In this document: positions 1-31,953 of the stretch, one piece after another
Layout: every line of letters begins with the position of its first letter
Numbering within the stretch: the stretch's first letter is position 1
IMG/VR virus record: IMGVR_UViG_3300032132_000758
Coordinates: 1-31,953 of that record
Length of the DNA stretch: 31,953 nucleotides
DNA from: a virus
Strand: one strand, 5' to 3'
Notes under the pieces: model-generated
Seen by the model: the letters and a program-made list of their open reading frames with translations, nothing else
What the model was told of the DNA's origin: nothing
Databases searched by the model: none
Position numbers and translations under genes: made by a program

Positions 1-522
1 ATGTCCGAAGGTGGCGAAATGTCAAATTGGTACCTGGCGAGAAAACACGTCCGAGCGGCGCGGCAGTTCGTGACGAATATCGCCGACGCTCTGCGATCGG
101 GGCACGAAGCTTCCGGCCGGGAACAACTCAAAGTGATTTGCGAATCGGCGCAGCGCGCCAGCAACGAGTGCTCCACGGCACTAGAACACCTAGATCGAGA
201 GAGCCAAGTACCAACCGACACCGAATGGGTTCGTAGGCAACTACTCGAATCAGTTCCCGTTCGCGCACTGCGTACATCGATCGCACACCCTTTCGGCTCA
301 AGCGTCGCGCGCGAATCATCATGCGACGTCGAAATCGAACAGCCTGTTGTCAGCATCAGTTTAGAAACAGATGACTTGCCCCTTTCGGTCGATGGCCTGT
401 GGTCGAGGGACGAAGTGGACGTCGCACTCGGGTTTGAGTTGCAGCGCGTCGACCGCCTCCCGCCGACGCCGCACCGCCCGGTTGGCGTTCAACAAGCTGT
501 CTATGCTGTCACAATTCAATAG
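1..522 (+). CDS. hypothetical protein, 173 aa
   Basis: I do not recognise this protein. It reads as a soluble, mixed-charge protein with a helical N-terminal half (residues about 10-70, rich in Ala, Arg and Glu) and a more beta-like, Val/Asp-rich C-terminal half. Codon use is GC-rich at third positions, which supports real coding, and no other frame is as convincing. The first ATG is base 1, so nothing upstream can be judged. A second in-frame ATG at base 19 has a good ribosome binding site just before it (AAGGTGG), so the protein may start there and be 167 aa. It lies upstream of the CsrA-like, holin-like and peptidase-like genes on the same strand. Confidence 0.55.
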   Translation: MSEGGEMSNWYLARKHVRAARQFVTNIADALRSGHEASGREQLKVICESAQRASNECSTALEHLDRESQVPTDTEWVRRQLLESVPVRALRTSIAHPFGSSVARESSCDVEIEQPVVSISLETDDLPLSVDGLWSRDEVDVALGFELQRVDRLPPTPHRPVGVQQAVYAVTIQ

Positions 523-570
523 TCGTTTCGTGCCGCTTCGAGCGGCTGCGACTTCGCGATACGTTCACGC

Positions 571-705
571 ATGAACGTCGGACCAGATTTCGCCGACGAA
601 GTCTTGAAGCATTTCAAGCACGAACCGACCGCTCCAGCACGTGTTAAGCGACACTCAGTCTCTGAACGTCATCGAATGTTCGGATCACCCTTCATCCCGA
701 GGTAA
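571..705 (+). CDS. small hypothetical protein, 44 aa
   Basis: A short ORF reading MNVGPDFADEVLKHFKHEP at its start and ending FIPR. It fills the gap between the first gene and the CsrA-like gene, and its stop codon falls 7 bases before the TTG at 713 that I prefer as the CsrA-like start. The ribosome binding site for that TTG (CGAGG) lies inside the last codons of this ORF, which suggests translational coupling. It has no clear ribosome binding site of its own, and no family is recognised. It may be a leader peptide or a chance ORF. Confidence 0.35.
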   Translation: MNVGPDFADEVLKHFKHEPTAPARVKRHSVSERHRMFGSPFIPR

Positions 706-712
706 ACATTTC

Positions 713-913
713 TTGGCTGGACTCACGCTGAAGTGCCGGGCAGGTGACACGTTTCAAATCGGCGATGCAACCGTGCTCGTCGTCAAGACGGGCCGCAAAA
801 CAACCGTCAACGTCGTTGCTCCATCGGATGTGAAAATCACGTACTCCGCAGCTCGACATGAAATAGATGCTCAATCAGAAAACGTTGTTCGGCATTCGGG
901 GAAACAACTGTGA
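713..913 (+). CDS. CsrA-like protein (carbon storage regulator fold), 66 aa
   Basis: The protein follows the CsrA/RsmA pattern of five short beta strands: an LTLKCRAGDTFQIGD segment matches the CsrA N-terminus (L-x-L-T-R-x-x-G-E-x-I-x-I-G-D), and VNVVAPSDVKI matches the V-x-I-G-I-x-A-P-x-D-V-x-V core. CsrA proteins are dimers that bind GGA motifs in mRNA leaders and control translation or stability. Here the two usual RNA-contact arginines (Arg6 and the Arg of HREEI) look replaced, by Cys and by a Tyr-Ser-Ala stretch, so canonical RNA binding is doubtful. I chose TTG 713 because it follows CGAGG by about 10 bases and places the CsrA match at the N-terminus. GTG 641 would add 24 residues. The end overlaps the next gene by 4 bases. 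Confidence 0.5.
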   Translation: MAGLTLKCRAGDTFQIGDATVLVVKTGRKTTVNVVAPSDVKITYSAARHEIDAQSENVVRHSGKQL

Positions 914-1206
914 ACTACGAGACATGGGTGTCTGAATTCGGCTTTCCCGTCGGAGTGATCCTGTTCGGCGCCTATTGCAGCACGCGCGTGGCTCGATTCT
1001 TCGCACCGATCATCAGACGCGTCACAGAAAACCACTGTGACCTGATCGAGACGCTCAAAGAGCAGTCGATCCAACAAACGGACATTCTGAAGTCGCAGAG
1101 TCTCGTCATGGAGCAGAATAGTCAGGTGCTCCTGCAAATCAGCCGAACCATTCACCGCGACGCCGACCGTGATGACGATGACGCGCCGGAATCGTTGGAA
1201 GTTTGA
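910..1206 (+). CDS. holin-like membrane protein with coiled coil, 98 aa
   Basis: One hydrophobic segment near residues 8-24 (GFPVGVILFGAYC) is followed by a basic stretch (RRV), a helical Gln/Glu/Leu-rich coiled-coil segment (residues about 40-80) and an acidic tail (DDDDAPES). This size and order fit small single-membrane-span phage lysis proteins, in which a membrane anchor and charged tail help release the endolysin. Starting with GTG, it overlaps the end of the CsrA-like gene by 4 bases, and a papain-fold protein gene follows, so a lysis cassette is a reasonable inference. No family-specific motif is visible, and it could instead be a membrane-tethered regulator. Confidence 0.45.
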   Translation: MNYETWVSEFGFPVGVILFGAYCSTRVARFFAPIIRRVTENHCDLIETLKEQSIQQTDILKSQSLVMEQNSQVLLQISRTIHRDADRDDDDAPESLEV

Positions 1207-1228
1207 ATCACATACGGAGAGCCCCAAG

Positions 1229-2179
1229 ATGCAAGACCGCGAGCAGGTTTTTGAAACGCCACTAGGATGGTTGCATGACAGGGAGGATCGCCGGCACCTG
1301 GAGCATACGCAGTCGCCGCTCCGCATCACGGGCCGCGTTCGCGCGCCGGAATCGGTCGATCCGCGAAAGTGGATGCGCGTGGAATCGGCGGACACATTGT
1401 CCACCGGTTGTGGTGACGCTTTGGCGCGATGCCTGGAGTTTTTGCAATGCCTGAAGTCCGGTGGTCACCCGGTCCGTCTCTCGTCGAGATTTGCCTACTT
1501 GGCCGCTCAGAAGATGGACGGTCTGCTCGGACGCGACTGCGGCGCAACAATCTGCGGTGCCGTCAAGGCTTCCAAGGTGTTTGGAATCTGCCGCCGGTCC
1601 AAATTCCGCCCAACCGTCGGTTACAGCGACGCGATGCCGATTTCCGCTTTCCGACGAGCCGCCGCGCATCGAGTTGTCTCGCATTCGTTGTTGTACAACT
1701 ATGCCGAGGTCGTGCGTATTCTGGCGAGCGGCGTTGGAGCGGCGCTCGTCGGCATCCCCTGGGCGGAGTCATTCGACGAGCACGACGGCACGATCGACTC
1801 GATCAGCGGACCCCAGCGCGGCTACCATTCATTGGCCGTCGTGGGTTTCGTCGCCGATCGGCGCGACGAACAAGGGCGCAAATACCTTATCGTGGCGAAC
1901 TCGCACGGCCGGTCGTGGGGGGAAGACGGGTTCGCAACCGTCGCACCCCGTTTATTCGACATTTGGGGTCGCGACGATCGCGCCATGATGGTCGGACTTT
2001 CCGATCTGGCGTCCTATCGCACTCGCGATGTCTCACCAATCAACGTTCGAGCTGCGCAGAGCCGACGTCCGGCTCATGCACCGGTGAACCACCGGCTCGA
2101 TAGCCGACAACGGCGGCGTTTCGAACGAGCCCTTCGCACTAAAAACGGTTCGGGCAGCCCGGCAGCCAGGGGGAAGTGA
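1229..2179 (+). CDS. papain-fold (C1-like) cysteine peptidase, possible lysin, 316 aa
   Basis: The second half carries the papain-family His and Asn regions: YHSLAVVGFV with the catalytic His, then KYLIVANSHGRSWGEDGF, which matches the NSWG-x-x-WG-x-x-G signature around the catalytic Asn. Upstream, an S-x-F-A-Y-x-A segment and DCGATICGAVKASKVFGIC match the usual middle of bacterial C1 peptidases. The active-site Cys region reads STGCGDALARCLEFL. If aligned on ALA with the common SCTGNALA form, the Cys is displaced by one residue, so activity is uncertain. The start at ATG 1229 has GGAGA 8 bases upstream. The gene follows a holin-like gene, so it may be a cell-wall or host-lysis peptidase, or a virion-maturation peptidase. 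The cysteine content is high. Confidence 0.6.
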   Translation: MQDREQVFETPLGWLHDREDRRHLEHTQSPLRITGRVRAPESVDPRKWMRVESADTLSTGCGDALARCLEFLQCLKSGGHPVRLSSRFAYLAAQKMDGLLGRDCGATICGAVKASKVFGICRRSKFRPTVGYSDAMPISAFRRAAAHRVVSHSLLYNYAEVVRILASGVGAALVGIPWAESFDEHDGTIDSISGPQRGYHSLAVVGFVADRRDEQGRKYLIVANSHGRSWGEDGFATVAPRLFDIWGRDDRAMMVGLSDLASYRTRDVSPINVRAAQSRRPAHAPVNHRLDSRQRRRFERALRTKNGSGSPAARGK

Positions 2180-2181
2180 CT

Positions 2182-2739
2182 ATGGAATTTCGTGATCGGA
2201 TACAGGAACTACGGCGGGTTCGGGCATCGGAGCTCAAACACCATCCGCACAATTGGCGGCGTCATCCGACGTTTCAAGGTGAAGCACTCAAAGGCATTCT
2301 CACCGAAGTCGGGTTCGCCGACGCGCTGTTGGCGCGTGAGCAAGACGACGGCGAGCTAGAGCTGATCGACGGGCATCTTCGGGCCGAGATAACCGGCGAT
2401 CAAATTGTGCCGGTGCTCATTCTCGATGTCGATGAGGCAGAATCCGCGAAGCTGTTAGCGACGCTCGACCCCTTGGCTTCGCTGGCCGAACCCGATGCCG
2501 CCGAGCTTGATCGGCTCCTCACACAGCTTCACATCACCAGTCAACCGCTGCTCGAAATGTTGTCGCAACTCGCGCCGACAGAACAGTCCATCGGAGACAA
2601 CGAAACAACCGATCCGGCACAACAGGCTCTTCGCGATTCGTATCACATTCTTGTCGAATGCGATGACGAACACCAACAAGCCGAGTTGCTCCAACGTTGG
2701 CAATCTGAGGGACTCACATGCCGCGCATTGATCGCTTGA
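2182..2739 (+). CDS. ParB-like N-terminal domain protein, 185 aa
   Basis: The N-terminal 100 residues show the ParB/Spo0J nuclease-like domain: a HPHNWRRHP box, ELIDGHLRAEI (the D-G-H-x-R nucleotide-binding motif) and VPVLILDVDEAESAKLLATLD, which is typical of phage and methylase-linked ParB domains. Such domains bind or hydrolyse CTP or ATP and load on DNA. There is no recognisable ParB helix-turn-helix after it, so this is a phage accessory form and not a chromosome partition protein. ATG 2182 is preferred over GTG 2176 because AGGGGG lies 8 bases before it. Its end overlaps the ABC ATPase/GNAT gene by 22 bases, and the two are probably translated and used together. Confidence 0.75.
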   Translation: MEFRDRIQELRRVRASELKHHPHNWRRHPTFQGEALKGILTEVGFADALLAREQDDGELELIDGHLRAEITGDQIVPVLILDVDEAESAKLLATLDPLASLAEPDAAELDRLLTQLHITSQPLLEMLSQLAPTEQSIGDNETTDPAQQALRDSYHILVECDDEHQQAELLQRWQSEGLTCRALIA

Positions 2740-3875
2740 AATCGGTAGCCGTCGTGCGAACACCGCGCGTGATGCAGCTCGAGGGGATGTTCGACCTGCC
2801 CGCCACGGAGCGAAGTTCTGTCCAGATCAACGCTCATCTTCCCTTGGAAGACCGGCCATGGAATATCGGCTTGATCGTCGGCCCGTCGGGTTGCGGAAAG
2901 ACGACCCTCGCCCGGGAGCTCTTCCCCGATGAATGCGATACGCGATTCGATTGGCCTACTGACAGGAGCCTGATCGACGCATTCCCGCCGTCGATGGCGA
3001 TCAAGGAGATCACCGGCTTGCTATCGAGCGTCGGCTTCTCGAGCCCGCCGAGCTGGCTCCGCCCGTTCGGCCGGTTGTCGAACGGCGAGCAATTTCGCGC
3101 AACGCTTGCCCGTGCTCTCGCCGAGCAGCCGGAACTAACCGTGGTCGACGAATTCACTTCGATCGTTGATCGCACCGTCGCCAAGATTGCCAGCGCCGCC
3201 GTCGCCCGCACCGTCCGGCATCGAAGCGAATCCTCGATGGCGCCGAAACGGTTCGTTGCGATATCATGTCATTACGACGTGCTCGATTGGCTCTGCCCCG
3301 ACTGGACGTACGAGCCTGCTTCGGAAGAATTTCAATGGAGGTGTGAAAGGCGACGCCCCGGCATCACTCTCGACATCGCCCGCGTGCATCGAAAGGCTTG
3401 GCAGCTATTCGGCAAGCATCACTATTTGAGTTCCGATATCAATTCGCTCGCGAAGTGTTTTGTGGCGTTCGTCGAGGGTCTCCCGGCTGCGTTTACGGCG
3501 GTCATGTCGTTCCCTCATCCCACGCATTCTGGTTGGAGAGAGCATCGGACCGTCTGCTTGCCAGATTACCAAGGTGTCGGCATCGGCAATCGGATCAGCG
3601 AACACGTTGCCTCACTCTTCAAAGCGACCAGTAAACCATACTACAGCACAACGTCGCATCCCGCCATGATCCGTCACCGAGCCCGCTCGCCGCTGTGGAA
3701 GATGACTCGCAAGCCGTCCATGGTCTCCAGCCGAAGGCACTCTGGGATCACAAAACGCGACTGTTGCAGTTCCTACGGCCGTATCACGGCCAGCTTCGAA
3801 TACGTGGGAGCCGCCGACCAGCACCCAAAGCTTGACGAGTTGATCGGCCCGTCACCGAAACGGTCACGTCTGTGA
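2718..3875 (+). CDS. ABC-type ATPase fused to GNAT acetyltransferase domain (COG2401-like), 385 aa
   Basis: Residues about 45-200 form an ABC ATPase: Walker A GPSGCGKTT (55-63), signature LSNGEQ (120-125), Walker B LTVVDEF (140-146) and an H-loop His in ISCHYDV (185). Residues about 225-365 form a GNAT-like domain with the acyl-CoA binding motif YQGVGIGNRI (about 284-293). The end (ITASFEYVG) resembles Mom-like and COG2401 proteins as I remember them. No membrane segment exists, so this is not a transporter. Phage GNAT relatives such as Mu Mom modify DNA bases, so a role in modifying or handling phage DNA at packaging is a reasonable inference. It starts inside the ParB-like gene with GAGGG upstream, and its stop overlaps the terminase small subunit start (GTGA). 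Confidence 0.75.
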   Translation: MPRIDRLKSVAVVRTPRVMQLEGMFDLPATERSSVQINAHLPLEDRPWNIGLIVGPSGCGKTTLARELFPDECDTRFDWPTDRSLIDAFPPSMAIKEITGLLSSVGFSSPPSWLRPFGRLSNGEQFRATLARALAEQPELTVVDEFTSIVDRTVAKIASAAVARTVRHRSESSMAPKRFVAISCHYDVLDWLCPDWTYEPASEEFQWRCERRRPGITLDIARVHRKAWQLFGKHHYLSSDINSLAKCFVAFVEGLPAAFTAVMSFPHPTHSGWREHRTVCLPDYQGVGIGNRISEHVASLFKATSKPYYSTTSHPAMIRHRARSPLWKMTRKPSMVSSRRHSGITKRDCCSSYGRITASFEYVGAADQHPKLDELIGPSPKRSRL

Positions 3876-4567
3876 ACGAGGGTGTATCGAACACATTTCT
3901 GATCGACCGCCGCCGCGAAAACGTGGCCCGTCTGTTGGCCAAAGGTGTGTCGCGTACGAAGATTGCCGAGCAGCTTCAGGTTTCCGTCACGACGGTTGCT
4001 CGCGACATCAAGTTTCTGCACGAGGGGTGGTTGCAAAACGCGCTCAGAGATTTCGATGCCGCCAGGGCAGAGGAAGTCGCCAAGCTGCTCAATCTCGAAG
4101 CCGAGGCTTGGCAAGCGTGGGAACGATCCTGCCGGGACGAAGAAACGACAAAGGTGATTACCGATGGCGAAAAGAAACGAGCCGAGCGGATCACGAAGCG
4201 TCAGTCCGGCGACATCAAGTTCCTGGAGAGCGTGGCCCGCTGTATCGAGCGGCGGTGTCGCATTCTTGGGCTGGAAGCGCCCATAGGTTTATCTAAGAGC
4301 GGCCATGCCCCAGGAGACCAGTCTTCCCCTGACGACGAGCGAGATCGCGCGCTTGAGATCGTGTGTGAACTCCGCGACCGAGTGCGAATTGCGTCAGCTC
4401 GTGGAAATATTCGAGACCGAACCCGCGAACCCACTGCTCAACAACGACGAACACGATTGCTTGACATGCTGGATTCAATCGAACAGCGGGCCGATGCTCT
4501 CGACGATTGCGCAATCGCTGAGCCGGATTCTGGCGACGAGCCGGACGAAAACGCTTCCGCTGGGTGA
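3872..4567 (+). CDS. terminase small subunit-like DNA-binding protein, 231 aa
   Basis: A helix-turn-helix is visible near residues 20-45 (LLAKGVSRTKIAEQLQVSV, then TTVARDIKFL), followed by long charged helices that include ERITKRQSGDIKFLESVARC. This is the usual order for terminase small subunits, which recognise the packaging site and recruit the large subunit. The position directly before the large subunit supports the call. The last 88 codons (from 4305) overlap the large-subunit frame, and there this frame has weaker third-position GC bias and a low-complexity Asp/Arg-rich sequence. The functional protein may therefore depend mainly on residues 1-145. It starts with GTG, overlapping the previous stop by 4 bases. 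Confidence 0.7.
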   Translation: MNEGVSNTFLIDRRRENVARLLAKGVSRTKIAEQLQVSVTTVARDIKFLHEGWLQNALRDFDAARAEEVAKLLNLEAEAWQAWERSCRDEETTKVITDGEKKRAERITKRQSGDIKFLESVARCIERRCRILGLEAPIGLSKSGHAPGDQSSPDDERDRALEIVCELRDRVRIASARGNIRDRTREPTAQQRRTRLLDMLDSIEQRADALDDCAIAEPDSGDEPDENASAG

Positions 4568-6041
4568 GTGGGCCCAGAAGTATCTCAAACACTATTTCAC
4601 GCATCCTGGGTCCTTGATGCACGAATGGCTGGTGGAAAGCCTCTGCCGGCTTCACACCGAACGTGGACAAAAGCTCGCCGTCATCGCCCCGCGCGGGAGC
4701 GCGAAAACGACCTGGATCAGCAAAACCTACCCCTTGTACTGCGCGGTCTACGAGTTGGAGCCCTATATCGTTCTAGCATCGAACACCACGGCGCAATCCG
4801 AACGGAATCTCGAGGCGATCCGGCGGGAACTCGAATCGAACGTGCTTTTGGCGCGCGACTTTCCCAACTCAACCGGGGCGGGACCGGTTTGGAACAACGC
4901 CGTGCTCGAAACGAGAAATGGAATTCGCCTCGAGTCCGTCGGACGCGAGACGTCGATTCGCGGACGCACGTTCGGGCCACACCGTCCGTCGTTAATCATC
5001 GTGGACGATCTCGAAAACGATCACTCCGCCCATTCCGACAAGCAGCGCGATCTCGCCGAACAATGGTTGATGCGAACCGCGATTCCCGCCGGAACCGACG
5101 AGACGAACGCCTTTGTGCTCGGAACGGCCCTGCATCACGACGATCTCCTGCACCGTCTTGAAAAGCGACCCGGTTGGCGCGTTCGCCGATTCAAGGCCAT
5201 CATCGACGAGCCGCCTCGTTCCGACTTATGGTCCCGGTGGAAGACGTTGCTCACCGACTCGGCGAACGAGAAGCGCGAACAAGACGCGCGCGCGTTTTAC
5301 CTCACGCATCAGACGGATATGGAGCAGGGAGCGAAACTGTTGTGGCCCGAGCGTGAGTCGCTCTATTTCCTTATGTCTCTGCGCGCCGAGATCGGTGAGT
5401 CGGCCTTTGAAACGGAGAAGCAGGGCAACCCGATCCAGAACGACGCTTACGAGTGGTCCCGCGAGTACTTCGGGCCGGACATCTGGTTCGACGAGTGGCC
5501 GCAGTTGGCAATTCGCGTGATGGCCCTCGATCCTTCGAAAGGGGCAAGCGAGACGAGCGACTATTCCGCATTCGTCATGCTGGGCCTGGGCAGCGACGGC
5601 TTAATGTACGTCGAAGCCGACTTGGCACGCCGCGACACCGTGCAGATCGCAGAAGACGCGCTGACGCTGGCGGCTCGCTTTGAGCCCGATGCGTTTCTCA
5701 TCGAAGCTAACCAATTTCAAAGTCTGTTGTACGACGAAATCCAACGATTGTCTGACGAACGAAGGCTGCTGCTTCCGCTGCGCACGGTTGTTAACACGGC
5801 GCACAAGAGAACGAGAATCCGATCGCTCGCGCCGCTCATTTGCAAGCACAAGTTTCGATTCAAAAGCGGCAGTTCGTCGGCGTCCCTGGTTGTCGACCAA
5901 CTCCGGCACTTTCCGCATGCCAAGCACGACGACGGCCCTGATGCACTCGATATGGCGGTGCGGATGCTAAGACTTCTTCAAAGCGGCACATCGGATGATG
6001 CCGAGCGTACGCCGATGATTCGCGAGATCGTTAAGCCGTGA
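4305..6041 (+). CDS. terminase large subunit, 578 aa
   Basis: This is the packaging motor. The N-terminal ATPase has Walker A APRGSAKTTW (128-137), an adenine/coupling region LASNTTAQS (157-165) and Walker B SLIIVDDLEND (229-239). The C-terminal RNase H-like nuclease has the three acidic positions expected: Asp409 in MALDPSKG, Glu467 in FLIEANQF and Asp546 in HDDGPDALDMA. The start is uncertain. ATG 4305 is the first possible one after an in-frame stop at 4284 and overlaps the small subunit by 263 bases. Typical large subunits have Walker A near residue 50-70, which would fit ATG 4494 (515 aa). Strong third-position GC in 4305-4567 argues that this frame is coding there. Confidence 0.93.
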   Translation: MPQETSLPLTTSEIARLRSCVNSATECELRQLVEIFETEPANPLLNNDEHDCLTCWIQSNSGPMLSTIAQSLSRILATSRTKTLPLGEWAQKYLKHYFTHPGSLMHEWLVESLCRLHTERGQKLAVIAPRGSAKTTWISKTYPLYCAVYELEPYIVLASNTTAQSERNLEAIRRELESNVLLARDFPNSTGAGPVWNNAVLETRNGIRLESVGRETSIRGRTFGPHRPSLIIVDDLENDHSAHSDKQRDLAEQWLMRTAIPAGTDETNAFVLGTALHHDDLLHRLEKRPGWRVRRFKAIIDEPPRSDLWSRWKTLLTDSANEKREQDARAFYLTHQTDMEQGAKLLWPERESLYFLMSLRAEIGESAFETEKQGNPIQNDAYEWSREYFGPDIWFDEWPQLAIRVMALDPSKGASETSDYSAFVMLGLGSDGLMYVEADLARRDTVQIAEDALTLAARFEPDAFLIEANQFQSLLYDEIQRLSDERRLLLPLRTVVNTAHKRTRIRSLAPLICKHKFRFKSGSSSASLVVDQLRHFPHAKHDDGPDALDMAVRMLRLLQSGTSDDAERTPMIREIVKP

Positions 6042-6260: not shown

Positions 6261-7826
6261 ATGCCCGAACTCGATCAACTCAAACAGACTCGCGACGCCG
6301 CCGTGCTGGCGCTGGAAACGGCTCGAGCCGAAGCGGAACTTAACGCACTCAAACAGACGAAAGACGGGCAACTGCTCGAAGCATGGGGCGATTTAGTCGA
6401 TCCCCTCGAATGGTTTCAAGACGACCCGGCCTTCGGGAGAGCGATCAACCCAGTCTCCCGCATCGACGACCGCTCGGGTGGCCGCACTCGACCGATCATC
6501 GAGAACGAACACAACTTGGCCGCCGTTCGTGGCACCGCCCGTTTGCTTGCTGATTCCGTTCCCGCGGCGATCGGCGTGATCAAGAATCTCACGAATTTCT
6601 GCATCGGAACGGGGTTTTCCTATAAGGCGATTTCGCGCGATCAAACGCCGACGGCGGGCGTTGAGGGCCTTGTCGCCGACGTGCAGCGCGTCGTTGAAGA
6701 GTTTCTGGAAGACAACGACTGGGTTGGTGACTTGGAGCGCGAGCTGTTTGTGCGCAGCCGCCGGGACGGCGAATTCTTCCTTGCACTTTATCCTCAATCG
6801 ACGGGTCGAACCGCGGCGCGGCTCATCGAGCCGGAGCAGGTGACCGAGCCGACCGATTCTCGGGCGCTGGAAGATTGGCTGGGCGTCGACACGCCCGCGT
6901 CGTGGACGTTCGGCATTCATACCGAAGCCGACGACGTTCAGCGTGTGCACGGATACCACGTTCGCTGGAACAATTCGGGCAGTGATTGGGATTATCTCAC
7001 GTCGCAGATGGTCGAACACGTCAAGCTCAATGTCGATCGCAATATCAAACGCGGCATCTCAGACTTTTATGCCGTGCGAAACCACCTCGAAGGCGTCGAA
7101 AAACTGTTGCGCAACACGCGCGAGGGGGCCGCCGTGCAAGCCGCCATCGCCTTCATCCGAGAGCATGTGCCCGGCTCGACGTCCGGACAAATTCAAAGCC
7201 TGTCAACAACCGCTGCCACCGCAAGCTACCAGCAGAAGACGAACCCCGGCACACGCACGCGATACATCAGCAAATACGAACCGGGCACGGTGTTGGACGT
7301 GTCTGGTGGAATGCAATACAAGCCGGGACCGCTCGGTTCGGCTCACGCCCCGAACTTCATTGCCATCGAACAGGCGGTGCTGCGAGCGATCGGCACGCGT
7401 TGGTGTATGCCGGAATACATGATTTCGGGCGACGCCTCGAACGCCAACTACTCCTCGACGATGGTCGCAGAAAGCCCGTTCGTCAAAGCCTGCCAGGCAG
7501 AGCAGCGATTCTACAAGAGCCGCTTCCGGCGGATCATCTGGAAGGCGATCCACAACGCCGCCGAGGTGGGACGCTTCGCTCGCTGGAACCTCGACTTCTC
7601 GGCACTACGTGAACTGGTCGACTTGCACGTCGAGGCGCCGTCGGTTGCCGTTCGCGATCAACTGTCCGAAGCGCAGACGAGCGAGATCGAATCCCGCAAT
7701 GGAATCCTATCGAAGCGGACTTGGTCCGCGTTATCGGGCCGCGACTACGACATCGAGCGAAAAAACCTCGATGCGGAAACCGCTCGAATGCGGAGCGACC
7801 AAGCCGATCGAGCGGAACACGCATAA
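6261..7826 (+). CDS. phage portal protein, 521 aa
   Basis: The portal forms the dodecameric DNA-entry ring at one head vertex and docks terminase. The sequence shows the portal order: an N-terminal helical region, the stem-wing segment (residues about 70-250, with a RDGEFF motif that is common in portals), and a C-terminal half with GTRWCMPEYMISGD followed by NANYSSTMVAES (residues about 380-410), typical of the lambda/SPP1-like clip and crown region. Its position, directly downstream of terminase and before the prohead protease, fits. ATG 6261 is preferred to the adjacent TTG 6258; no strong ribosome binding site is visible. The long hairpin at 6154-6224 lies just upstream and could affect its expression. 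Confidence 0.88.
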   Translation: MPELDQLKQTRDAAVLALETARAEAELNALKQTKDGQLLEAWGDLVDPLEWFQDDPAFGRAINPVSRIDDRSGGRTRPIIENEHNLAAVRGTARLLADSVPAAIGVIKNLTNFCIGTGFSYKAISRDQTPTAGVEGLVADVQRVVEEFLEDNDWVGDLERELFVRSRRDGEFFLALYPQSTGRTAARLIEPEQVTEPTDSRALEDWLGVDTPASWTFGIHTEADDVQRVHGYHVRWNNSGSDWDYLTSQMVEHVKLNVDRNIKRGISDFYAVRNHLEGVEKLLRNTREGAAVQAAIAFIREHVPGSTSGQIQSLSTTAATASYQQKTNPGTRTRYISKYEPGTVLDVSGGMQYKPGPLGSAHAPNFIAIEQAVLRAIGTRWCMPEYMISGDASNANYSSTMVAESPFVKACQAEQRFYKSRFRRIIWKAIHNAAEVGRFARWNLDFSALRELVDLHVEAPSVAVRDQLSEAQTSEIESRNGILSKRTWSALSGRDYDIERKNLDAETARMRSDQADRAEHA

Positions 7827-7887
7827 CGCGATGAGTGATTGGTCTAAAGTAGATCACAGTTTCCCAACATCGTCACGAAAGAACGAA

Positions 7888-8793
7888 ATGACAAACGAAT
7901 GCACCGATCAGCCGAGCACGCCGGTTCCGCTGCTTGAAATCTCGATGACTGAATCGCCGCAGGTCGACCGCGATGCCGGAATTATCCGGTCGGTCAAAGT
8001 GCTCGGACGCGAAAGCCGCAACGGTCGCACGTATAGCGACCAAGCACTCGAACAGGCTTCGCAGATTTACGAGAAATTGGGAGTCAACATCGATCATCCC
8101 GACCGGCTTCAGGCGGGCGTCACCAGGAAATTCGCCGACCGCTTCGGATATCTGCAAGGCGTGCACCGGCGGGACGACGGTGTGTACGGCGATCTGGTGT
8201 ATTTGAAAAAGCATGTTCTGGCTGAGCAGATCTGCGAAGCGGCAGAACGGATGCCGCTGCAATTCGGGCTGAGCCACAACGCCGAAGGCTATGTGACGAA
8301 CGACGGCGATAAGACGATTGTCGAAAACATCACCCGCGTCTTGAGCGTCGACATCGTGCAACAGCCGGCCACAAACCGCGGCCTATTCGAGTCGGCCGAC
8401 GCGGACGATACCGACGGCGCGCCAATCGTTGAGCATTCAAGGTTGGAAGCGGGTCAGAAATCGGCTTTTGTCGACCCTCGCCAATCTCCGTTGGCCGAAC
8501 ATGGATCAACGTCCGAGCCGGAATCGAAGACATTCGATGGACTACGCGCAAAGATCCGGGAGCTTGAAGGCGAGCGAGACGTGCGGCAACTGCTCGAAAC
8601 AATGGGCGTTGCCGCGCAACCCGCACGAATCAAAGCGCTGATGAAGCTTGAATCAGACGTCGAACGCACGGAACTCATCGCGACGTGGCCGACCCGAACA
8701 GCTGCAAAGCCGAGGAGCATCTCGCCCTTGTTCGAAACGACGCAGAACGTGTCTCCCGGTGACGCAGAAAGTTTCGCCCGGGCGATTCGTTGA
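7888..8793 (+). CDS. prohead protease, T4 gp21-like, with C-terminal scaffold-like region, 301 aa
   Basis: Residues about 25-170 match the T4 gp21-type prohead protease pattern: a LGRESRNGRTYSDQALE box (39-55), then NIDHPD with the likely catalytic His70, then MPLQFGLSHNAEG with the likely nucleophile Ser129. This protease cleaves scaffold and capsid N-termini inside the prohead. Residues about 185-290 are charged and helical (for example KIRELEGERDVRQLLETMG), as in a fused internal scaffold; no separate scaffold gene is seen. The start is ambiguous: ATG 7831 (320 aa, 5 bases after the portal stop) or ATG 7888 with a weak GAAAG site. I chose 7888 on that weak site. Confidence 0.8.
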   Translation: MTNECTDQPSTPVPLLEISMTESPQVDRDAGIIRSVKVLGRESRNGRTYSDQALEQASQIYEKLGVNIDHPDRLQAGVTRKFADRFGYLQGVHRRDDGVYGDLVYLKKHVLAEQICEAAERMPLQFGLSHNAEGYVTNDGDKTIVENITRVLSVDIVQQPATNRGLFESADADDTDGAPIVEHSRLEAGQKSAFVDPRQSPLAEHGSTSEPESKTFDGLRAKIRELEGERDVRQLLETMGVAAQPARIKALMKLESDVERTELIATWPTRTAAKPRSISPLFETTQNVSPGDAESFARAIR

Positions 8794-28827: not shown

Positions 28828-31800
28828 TCACTCGTTGACCCATTTCGATCCGCTGCGTTTCATCTCCTCCCAGGCCTCAATGTGGCGACGGAGTTCGGCG
28901 TGCTGCCGACCGTGCTCGATCAGGGCCCGCCGGGCGTCGGGATCGAACGGAATCGCTCTGGGGCCGAGGCACTCGTCCCAGACCTTCGCGATCGGCGACT
29001 CCGGCTCCGGGTGCGTAGGCTCTGTTACAAATTCTGCAACGTACAGCACGTGGTATTCATTCCCCGTCCATTGCCCGGATTCTTCCAACGTCTTTGAGGC
29101 GCGTTGTTCAATCTCTTCCATAAGGGTTTCGAGGCGGCTCGTCGAAGGTGACCTGCCTGACGTGAGTTCGTACCACGTCCGGCGTGTCTTGTTTCCCGCC
29201 CTGGAGAGGAGTTTCGCTGTCACTCCAGAGGTGTGATCCAGATCGAAATCGGAATCTGGTACTGAAACGATCACGCGGGATCCAACGACGTGATGGCCAA
29301 CTGCTCGTACGCCGAATTGACGAAGAGAATTCAGGTATGGTGCACCTAATCGGGCGAACGTCTGCGACTCAACATCCCAGCAAAGTGTTGGGTGGTCCGC
29401 CGGCGTCTCCGACAGCGGCCACGATGTAACGATACTACGGTTTTGACTAACGGAAATTGTCCCATACACATGACACGTTTCACATTGAAAAAGAGAATAG
29501 AGCCACGGGTCGATGGGAACGAATTCGCGACTCGATGAACACCAGCGAAGCTTACCGTCCAATAGGTGTTTCTCTTTGTCAATCGACGAATCAAGTTTCG
29601 ATACTTTGTCACGCAAGAGTGGGTGTTGGCAGTGATACGGGCCAGCGGGATCGGTGGAAGGCGGGCGATTCGGGCCGCATACGAGCGCGTGACCGATGAA
29701 CGAGAGCATGACATCTCGAACGAGTTCTTCAAGAAACGGCAGCCTCCGCCGCGCGAGTTCATAGCGCTGAATCCTGAGAGGCAGATTTGCTTCGCTGTCA
29801 ACAACGGAGATGATCGGCTCGCTCAATCTGGTACTCGCGGGCCAAGCGAAGTCTGCATCATACAGATATGAGTGTTCCGGACTTGCAACTCGTAGACCGT
29901 TGCAGACAATCCTTGGCGAAAAATTGTCAAAGCTCCAATAAACCGCGTCGAAGCCATCGGGATGAATCACCGACCACCCGGGTGGGCTCGTGGCCCGGGC
30001 GATCTGCACTCTGTATTCTTGCTCGATTTCGATAGTTTTCTTCGTCGTCGTAATACGTCTGGAAACGACCGGCCAGTCCCAGCAGAACCAGTCAGTCATC
30101 TTGAATACTCGCGCGTCATTCCACGCGTCCCAGGTAGCAACCTCCATATCTGAGTGAAGTTTGAAGGATGCGACCGTTGCGTCGGAGAGTTCAACCTCGA
30201 CAGTCGTGCCGATCGGCAGGTCGTCCCGTCTTTGGATTTCAATCAACTGACCGTCGGCGTCGGCTTCGACAAAGTACCCCGGCTCGTTTTCTCCGACGTG
30301 GCGTGTCGACACGCGGAATTTCGTGCCCAGCAGGAAAGTGGCGAAGACGCCGATGCCGAACCGGCCGGCTCGCAGCACGCGCGGTTTGCCCTCGTCGTCG
30401 GCAAACTCACTCGTCCAGTCCGCACTTTGCCGGAACGAAGCGCCGCCCCGCAGCAGATAGCCGCGAATCGTATCGCTTGTCATGCCGATCCCTCGGTCGG
30501 TCACGCGACAGAGCCACGCCCCGTCGTCTCGCTCGACAAAGTCAACTAAAACGTCGCATTCCTGTGCTGCGAGTTCGAGCGAGTCGACCGATGTGTCGCG
30601 GGCTTTGCACCAGGCCTGCAATTCGCGGACGGCGTCGACCGCATTTTGTATGAGCTCACGCACGCCCACTTCGGGATGCTCTCCGTAGAGAGGTTCGACG
30701 AGCAACGTCAGCAGGTTCGGGTCGGTCTCGAAGCCCGTCCGTTCGGGCACGTAAGGTAAGCGGTCTCGAAACGCTGGACTGTTCAGGTTGCAATAAACCC
30801 GGCGCGTCGCGAGCCCGATTTTGTCGAGACCGAGGTCGGTTCGCGCTCCGTAGGCTTCGTCCAGCACCGCGGTCGAATGATCCATCTCGTTCTGCACGCC
30901 GTCCAAGAGCTCACGAAGCTGTAGGTACAGTTTCAGCGGAATGTCCTGGGAAACGGTCACCATCTTTCCGCGTGGGTCGTCGGCCGGTGAAATGGTCTGC
31001 ACAGCTCGATGCTTGCTCCACTCCGCGAGAGAAACCGGGCTCTGCGGATTTCGAAGTTGCAAGAGCACGGCCGGTGCTCGCTGACGATCGATTTGAAGAT
31101 AATCGGCGACACGCAGCAGCGCCATCGGAAACAGCACCGCCGAGCCGAGGGGTCGCGGAGTCTGCGCGTAGAGCGGGCTCGAATCAAGATACGCCTTACA
31201 AACGCGCAGCGATGTTCCGTGGGACCGCGCGGCCAGCCCGATCAGGTCGGCAAGTTTTGCGAGTTCGTTATTCCCGGCGGCCAGCGCGGGAAACCCCTTG
31301 TCGCTCGAGTCGGCCGGAAGGCCCGGAAAGCCGTAAATTGCGATCTCGTGCGCCAGCCGCGCATGATGACGGCGAATGAATTCGCCGACGACCAAGCAGT
31401 GGTTGCGTTCCCACTCGCCCGGGTTATCGGGCAAATTCTGGAACTTCCAGCCGCGGTGCACCGAGTCCGGGCCGACGATGTTCGTCAAAACTCGATCGCT
31501 GAACCGACGTGCCTCGCGTACGTAATCCTCCCACAACTCCTTCCAAGGACGGTCGGCCGTATGTCCATTGTGGTTTTCGTCGAACCATTCGAGCCGTCTG
31601 AATCGCGTGTTCGGCGCAATCAATTCCAAAAAGCCGTCGGCACGAAGATGCATCGCGATGTCGTGCAACAGTGTCGCACCGACGATCACTGCCGCGTCGG
31701 CGTCGCAAAGGAGTTGGTCGGTCTTGGACGTCGGCGCGCTTTGATTCCATACGTCATCGGGTACGAGGGACACTTCGGCTTGCAAGACCCGATTGACGTG

Positions 31801-31953
31801 GTCGATACCATGATCGGTATAGTCCGGAAAGAACGGCAATTTGTTGTCATGTAAGATGTCGCCGACTCGTTCTGCAAGGGCGCGCAGCGGCGTTCTATAT
31901 GGGCTGTCTTCGAGTAGGCTCTTCAACTGCTTCGGGAATTCGACAGCGGTCAT
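28828..31953 (-). CDS. HD phosphohydrolase plus HSP90-like GHKL ATPase protein, 1041 aa
   Basis: Read from ATG 31953 on the minus strand. The N-terminal HD domain (residues about 20-300) shows DHGIDHVNRV (H48, H52), LLHDIAMHL (HD at 97-98), HHARLAH (196-202), a SHG (245-247), and RVADYLQID (281-289). A Bergerat-fold ATPase follows: the N-box VRELIQNAVDAVRE (E433, N437, D440), DRGIGM (486-491), and GRFGIGVFA (530-538). The order and E-N-D motifs match HSP90-type proteins. The last 450 residues are not recognised. HD domains of this kind cleave phosphate from nucleotides. HD-GHKL fusions are typical of predicted bacterial conflict proteins, so antiphage or phage-phage competition is a likely role. 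It converges on the late operon. Confidence 0.75.
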   Translation of the reverse strand: MTAVEFPKQLKSLLEDSPYRTPLRALAERVGDILHDNKLPFFPDYTDHGIDHVNRVLQAEVSLVPDDVWNQSAPTSKTDQLLCDADAAVIVGATLLHDIAMHLRADGFLELIAPNTRFRRLEWFDENHNGHTADRPWKELWEDYVREARRFSDRVLTNIVGPDSVHRGWKFQNLPDNPGEWERNHCLVVGEFIRRHHARLAHEIAIYGFPGLPADSSDKGFPALAAGNNELAKLADLIGLAARSHGTSLRVCKAYLDSSPLYAQTPRPLGSAVLFPMALLRVADYLQIDRQRAPAVLLQLRNPQSPVSLAEWSKHRAVQTISPADDPRGKMVTVSQDIPLKLYLQLRELLDGVQNEMDHSTAVLDEAYGARTDLGLDKIGLATRRVYCNLNSPAFRDRLPYVPERTGFETDPNLLTLLVEPLYGEHPEVGVRELIQNAVDAVRELQAWCKARDTSVDSLELAAQECDVLVDFVERDDGAWLCRVTDRGIGMTSDTIRGYLLRGGASFRQSADWTSEFADDEGKPRVLRAGRFGIGVFATFLLGTKFRVSTRHVGENEPGYFVEADADGQLIEIQRRDDLPIGTTVEVELSDATVASFKLHSDMEVATWDAWNDARVFKMTDWFCWDWPVVSRRITTTKKTIEIEQEYRVQIARATSPPGWSVIHPDGFDAVYWSFDNFSPRIVCNGLRVASPEHSYLYDADFAWPASTRLSEPIISVVDSEANLPLRIQRYELARRRLPFLEELVRDVMLSFIGHALVCGPNRPPSTDPAGPYHCQHPLLRDKVSKLDSSIDKEKHLLDGKLRWCSSSREFVPIDPWLYSLFQCETCHVYGTISVSQNRSIVTSWPLSETPADHPTLCWDVESQTFARLGAPYLNSLRQFGVRAVGHHVVGSRVIVSVPDSDFDLDHTSGVTAKLLSRAGNKTRRTWYELTSGRSPSTSRLETLMEEIEQRASKTLEESGQWTGNEYHVLYVAEFVTEPTHPEPESPIAKVWDECLGPRAIPFDPDARRALIEHGRQHAELRRHIEAWEEMKRSGSKWVNE

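Follow-up and report, generated by a model that had tools for sequence, protein, structure and literature searches.

Comparison of loci from viruses and bacteria identifies a short C-terminal module, VEC, rather than the ParB domain to which it is mostly joined, as the near-obligate partner of a family of ABC ATPase-GNAT fusion proteins (ABC-GNAT); the ParB domain is optional. The analysed DNA is a 31,953-base virus record (the window, whose coordinates are used throughout), in which a ParB-like gene ending in VEC overlaps the ABC-GNAT gene (Table 1). We consider it probable that the two genes form a phage DNA-modification (anti-restriction) operon.

Table 1. Features of the ParB-VEC/ABC-GNAT locus and its neighbours in the window
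Feature	Position	Strand	Remarks
ParB/Srx-fold protein with C-terminal VEC module	2182..2739	+	185 aa from ATG 2182
VEC module	2641..2736	+	YHILVECDDEHQQAELLQRWQSEGLTCRALIA; last 32 residues of the ParB-like protein
GAGGGA, ribosome-binding-site-like	2707..2712	+	inside the VEC Glu-Gly codons; 5 bases 5' of the ABC-GNAT ATG
ABC ATPase-GNAT fusion, phrog_11143 family	2718..3875	+	385 aa, ATG start
ABC ATPase domain	2718..3362	+	residues 1-215
GNAT domain	3363..3812	+	residues 216-365
Walker A	2880-2903	+	
ABC signature	3075-3092	+	
Walker B	3135-3155	+	
H-loop His	3270-3272	+	
QGVGIG, acyl-CoA pyrophosphate-loop motif	3570-3587	+	
HTH protein, terminase-small-subunit position	3872..4567	+	GTG start; neighbour, not a defining part
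Terminase large subunit	4305..6041	+	neighbour, not a defining part

The preliminary description of this DNA had reported overlaps of 22 bases between the ParB-like and ABC-GNAT genes and of 4 bases between ABC-GNAT and the gene in the terminase-small-subunit position, and both are found (end at 2739 against start at 2718, and end at 3875 against start at 3872). The mechanically called frame of the ParB-like gene begins at GTG 2176. Since AGGGGGAAG lies directly 5' of ATG 2182, the latter is the likelier start, and we prefer it as was done earlier. A plus-strand gene at 1169-2179, whose 336-aa product matches the papain family (Peptidase_C1), ends directly 5' of the ParB-like gene. No conservation of it was found 5' of other ABC-GNAT systems, and upstream genes were rejected as operon members because conservation was absent across loci. 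In a few loci other genes separate ParB-VEC from ABC-GNAT, and these had no Pfam match. At the other end of the window, a minus-strand gene (28828-31953) encodes a 1041-aa protein that runs to the window end, and in which an HD-domain-like motif, YTDHGIDHVNRV, and the GHKL/Hsp90-like ATPase motifs ELIQNAVDAV and GRFGIGVF could be read by eye. It gave no PADLOC match and is possibly an accessory or defence gene.

Walker A, LSNGEQ, Walker B and a GNAT QGVGIG motif had been noted earlier in a single 385-residue protein, and all are present. The ABC domain carries Walker A GPSGCGKT (residues 55-62), the signature LSNGEQ (120-125), Walker B with DE (144-145), the D-loop D151 and the H-loop H185, and the GNAT motif reads R277-x-V-x-x-P282-x-x-Q285-G-V-G288-I-G. 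In an alignment of 41 relatives, with identity down to 33%, the ABC motifs and the GNAT loop were invariant or nearly so. Modelling by AlphaFold2 with the family alignment gave a pLDDT of 90.1 and a pTM of 0.84, with no coiled coil in the ABC domain. VIA-align placed residues 1-216 of the model on ABC cassettes (MJ0796, Z 14.8, 180 residues) and residues 216-365 on GNATs (1y9k, Z 14.2, rmsd 3.0, 134 residues; 2bsw as second GNAT structure, Z 13.9). The Pfam GNAT match of the protein lay below the cut-off. Structure prediction, which had been proposed as a check on whether the C-terminal domain falls outside the GNAT fold, confirmed that fold. Motifs and predicted structure together establish ABC-GNAT as an intact, soluble ABC ATPase and a GNAT with a canonical acyl-CoA-binding loop, joined in one chain.

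The protein matched the profile of phrog_11143, a family listed in PHROGs as of unknown function, over its full length (E 3.3e-108, residues 15-367 on profile positions 12-353 of 357). Relatives were found in 55 phage records, 114 viral-contig stretches and 482 genome stretches. As judged from this whole-length match and the many relatives, the observation is far above chance. The phages concerned include those of Gordonia, Arthrobacter, Pseudoalteromonas, Pseudomonas, Oenococcus, Lactococcus, Streptococcus, Porphyromonas, Tenacibaculum, Aeromonas, Leptospira and Pasteurella, and in several phages of Gram-positive bacteria (P335, Javan141) the ABC and GNAT halves are separate genes. The nearest relatives occur in genomes of Gimesia and other Planctomycetaceae, and we therefore infer that a planctomycete is the likely host. 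GenBank labels of relatives include 'ABC iron siderophore transporter', and often the genes are unannotated; in Pseudoalteromonas phage SL25 (L201) the gene pair is present at 6468-8071 and is absent from the GenBank annotation. An ABC-only relative (records H52-H55 and H59-H85; about 27% identity over query residues 3-212), in which the GNAT half was not seen, is common on plasmids and phages of about 105 kb from Acinetobacter, Aeromonas and Rhizobium.

VEC is a C-terminal module of about 35 residues with a consensus of about YGVxVxCxDExxQxxLxxRLxxEGxxCRVL. When the C-terminal ~39 residues of the ParB-like protein served as query, a VEC gene was found upstream of ABC-GNAT in 77 of the 80 viral loci, the remaining three ending at a contig end. 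Of 80 genome loci, 77 likewise had VEC; the misses were two contig ends and Pan216, on whose chromosome (L114) interspersed 'LSPWERG'-type repeats stand upstream of ABC-GNAT, replacing the partner. In most loci VEC forms the C-terminal end of a ParB-like protein, which is 174-360 aa long. In one clade, of Mu-like phages, it is a stand-alone minigene of 41-66 aa that lacks a ParB domain and corresponds to phrog_28816, of unknown function in PHROGs. At one locus of a Gemmataceae genome (L130, 4263-6098), ParB, VEC, ABC and GNAT are fused in a single frame of 611 codons. The pairing of a ParB-like gene with ABC-GNAT, as proposed in the preliminary description, thus stands as a coupling of genes, but the ParB domain, absent in the minigene clade, is not the constant partner. 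The neighbourhood survey suggested there did reveal an upstream partner, whose invariant part is the short VEC that had been missed.

VEC was also searched on its own in 199 evenly drawn planctomycete genomes. It was present in 10 of them, and the same 10 genomes, no others, have a strong ABC-GNAT match (E <1e-60); every VEC found in this sample abuts an ABC-GNAT (Fisher p 5e-17 for co-occurrence, relatedness ignored). Four other sampled genomes hold only distant ABC-GNAT relatives, without VEC; distant ABC-GNAT proteins of 420-502 aa, also without VEC, were seen in planctomycete genomes (L237-L240). In 200 genomes of a second phylum, VEC was found in the seed genome only. Distant versions in P335, Javan141, Pmp13 and LE4 are a by-eye reading, and in Aeromonas phage PX29 VEC is seemingly absent. 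The Cys of the module is replaced by Val in the fused Gemmataceae protein and in Porphyromonas phage EM3; it is therefore not a catalytic residue, and a catalytic Cys module was rejected. A sequence search among solved structures returned no relatives of VEC, and the AlphaFold2 model of ParB-VEC contained the VEC helix, with the paired strands absent.

In the overlap between the two genes, the NTG start codon of ABC-GNAT is made of the TG of the Cys codon of 'CRAL' and the base before it, and hence such a start needs Cys or Trp at that position. Of 77 distinct loci having the Cys, 39 use this embedded start. The preceding Glu-Gly is spelled GAG-GGN in 27/29 cases with the embedded start as against 20/66 elsewhere (p 6e-9, relatedness ignored), a spelling that results in a GAGGG ribosome-binding-like sequence 5' of the ABC-GNAT start. 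From this we infer that VEC and ABC-GNAT are translationally coupled.

The term 'ParB-like' used earlier is borne out by the predicted model, in which a ParB/Srx fold occupies about residues 7-120 (Noc, Z 12.1, rmsd 2.0, 92 residues; sulfiredoxin, Z 8.8). Matches to solved structures span about residues 1-119, and the remainder is modelled by AlphaFold2 as helices, a linker and VEC. PF02195 matched 18 of 33 scanned members, the protein of the window not being among them. The nearest phage relatives of its ParB domain include some that carry a DNA methylase annotation (35% identity). No partition-system features were found at the locus: the ATPase coupled to the ParB-like protein is an ABC ATPase, not ParA, and a search of positions 1-4600 gave no cluster of parS-like repeats.

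Some relatives have further genes downstream, of two kinds, both of which are lacking from the window locus. A formyltransferase-fold gene, usually overlapping the end of ABC-GNAT, is present in 14 of the 19 rows of one clade (SH-aLRT 100; 19 of 106 rows of a tree that includes related sequences). In the Asn-His-Asp triad of the superfamily (E. coli PurN numbering), Tyr, Phe or another residue stands in place of the Asn, and His and Asp are kept. Since the first residue of the triad is replaced, the reaction of this enzyme may differ from that of the superfamily. In several loci of the window's own subfamily, a PanD-like gene (Asp_decarbox, E 2e-33) lies downstream, with the Gly-Ser of the self-cleavage site kept and five changes on the tree. 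Contig L002 (506-4706) carries tandem systems, namely VEC, ABC-GNAT and formyltransferase followed by ParB-VEC and ABC-GNAT; the second belongs to the subfamily of the window and lacks a formyltransferase.

A 3.2-kb left flank of tail genes is shared at 84.7% identity by Porphyromonas phages EM3 and 381OKJP, whose final 87 bases agree at 83%. In the interval that separates the two flanks, EM3 carries mini-VEC, ABC-GNAT and formyltransferase, and 381OKJP carries a single Mom gene (Pfam Mom, E 6e-56). The same slot holds Mom in WW2885 and Kyudai4 and is empty in HG1691old; four more Porphyromonas phages have an ABC-GNAT match near the genome end. This positional exchange, seen in one phage group only, is the strongest evidence for the putative link to DNA modification, although the slot may be a general one for accessory genes. 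Mom of phage Mu is an anti-restriction enzyme that forms N6-carbamoylmethyl-adenine. A kinship of the GNAT half with Mom, to which the preliminary description had pointed, does not extend beyond the GNAT superfamily. The window protein was unmatched by Pfam Mom (PF25680) at E up to 1, compared with 2.4e-75 for Mu Mom; BLASTP against Mom gave nothing; hhalign gave a probability of 0.1, in a test limited by the shallow Mom alignment. Direct kinship was therefore rejected, and the GNAT domain resembles Mom no more closely than it does other GNATs.

The DNA-modification reading is supported by a prior prediction, by the exchange of Mom and ABC-GNAT cassettes and by the company that ParB domains keep with Mom and methyltransferases, as in Microbacterium phage Appa, where the Mom gene is overlapped by a ParB_N protein. 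It further rests on the linkage of VEC and ABC-GNAT, the four-part gene fusion and the fold evidence. Against it stand the lack of any special closeness to Mom, the possibly general nature of the slot and the swap being confined to one group, as well as the fact that the usual targets of GNAT acylation are proteins or small molecules. ABC-GNAT might instead acylate a protein, with ParB-VEC picking the target; RNA polymerase or a restriction enzyme of the host, or the terminase or capsid protein of the phage itself, would be examples. Phage GNATs do modify host proteins, as shown by Rac of phiKMV-like phages (PMC7824862), and in the window the ABC-GNAT gene overlaps the one in the terminase-small-subunit position. 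We nevertheless regard a protein target as unlikely: Mom and ABC-GNAT exchange in one slot, the ParB-domain partner is found in the company of DNA methyltransferases and Mom as well, and ABC-GNAT lies beside many different terminases or distant from any.

Terminase proximity bears also on a DNA-organising or packaging factor, in which ParB and an SMC-head-like ABC ATPase would load onto the genome close to where packaging begins, the GNAT being secondary or regulatory. ParB and Noc are the best fold matches of the ParB-like protein. Among 137 loci, the gene for the large terminase subunit (TerL) begins no more than 1.5 kb downstream in 46 and no more than 3 kb downstream in 65, counts which are lower bounds as TerL families are diverse. 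Several ABC-GNAT systems, however, sit away from the terminase. A link of the operon to packaging is weakly supported, because proximity to the terminase, although common, is not a constant feature, and a packaging role was rejected on that count. Of the modification step tied to packaging that had been suggested at first, the modification is retained and the tie is not. With the minigene clade lacking a ParB domain, the ABC domain lacking a coiled coil, positions 1-4600 lacking a cluster of parS-like repeats, and the catalytic loop of the GNAT strictly kept, a DNA-organising factor seems very improbable. Least probable of all do we hold a toxin or superinfection-type defence, in which the GNAT would modify incoming DNA or host components and self-protection would play no part. 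In prophages the operon does behave like a mobile accessory cassette, and there were weak PADLOC matches; these are explained by generic ATPase motifs and were rejected as evidence of defence. No accompanying nuclease or antitoxin was seen, the upstream genes vary, and the operon occurs in isolated phages too, beyond bacterial chromosomes.

If DNA is indeed the target, the VEC subunit would dock on ABC-GNAT, probably at a fixed ratio owing to translational coupling, and the ParB domain, where present, would bring the complex to DNA. Two ABC domains may then dimerise with ATP, clamping or opening the DNA and exposing a base, to which the GNAT would pass an acyl or aminoacyl group; the acylated base would shield phage DNA from restriction. 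In some relatives, the formyltransferase-fold or PanD-like enzyme might further tailor the added group. Each of these steps is held to be less likely than DNA modification as such. More tentatively still, and with the odds against it, one may picture a modular hypermodification system, in which VEC couples ABC-GNAT to DNA with ParB as an option, and processing of the added group on the DNA, by a formyltransferase-fold enzyme or a PanD-like pyruvoyl decarboxylase, yields new phage nucleobases. Modified DNA would mean an undescribed anti-restriction chemistry, accessible in cultured phages, in a family of hundreds of prophage and phage loci from several bacterial phyla. The operon offers handles in the minigene adaptor, the two candidate tailoring enzymes and closely related phages with Mom, ABC-GNAT or nothing at one site.

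Among known systems, Mu Mom resembles ABC-GNAT as a GNAT-superfamily phage enzyme encoded by a late accessory gene at the genome end, mom lying at the right end of the Mu genome, and Mom fills the same slot as the operon in related Porphyromonas phages. The small upstream overlapping gene of mom, com, is paralleled in the mini-VEC clade. Com is a zinc-finger RNA-binding activator (PMC6483171), whereas the zinc-finger pattern is absent from VEC. Mu Mom has no ABC domain, in contrast to ABC-GNAT with its ABC domain and canonical acyl-CoA loop QGVGIG. Phage ParB/Srx proteins, including ParB-DNA methyltransferase fusions (phrog_498) and ParB proteins beside Mom, share the same kind of N-terminal domain; in phrog_498 a methyltransferase follows the ParB domain, and in the window protein VEC does.

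In 2013, a GNAT coupled with an ABC ATPase, as in Tenacibaculum phage pT24, was predicted to modify a DNA base by an uncharacterised acylation (Iyer, Zhang, Burroughs and Aravind, ref. 136 of PMC7824862, through which we cite it). That system is like ours in joining a phage ABC ATPase to a GNAT with predicted base acylation, and the pT24 protein is a relative of the window ABC-GNAT (37.1% identity over 88%, E 3e-59). The DNA-modification reading is thus supported and is not new in outline. The account in PMC7824862 mentions neither VEC, the ParB partner, the formyltransferase and PanD-like genes nor the Mom exchange, some of which the 2013 paper itself may cover; our literature search gave no other description of the ABC-GNAT/ParB pair, for which the same paper may report some context, and no mention of COG2401, the family named in the preliminary description. 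Foldseek matches of ABC-GNAT included TmcA (PDB 2zpa), a match from which we do not claim a common family. TmcA is the tRNA(Met) cytidine acetyltransferase, which uses ATP in acetylating a nucleobase. It differs in its RNA substrate and in having a helicase-type, not an ABC, ATPase. As an ATPase domain joined to a nucleobase-acetylating GNAT, it is the best characterised parallel for how ABC-GNAT may work.
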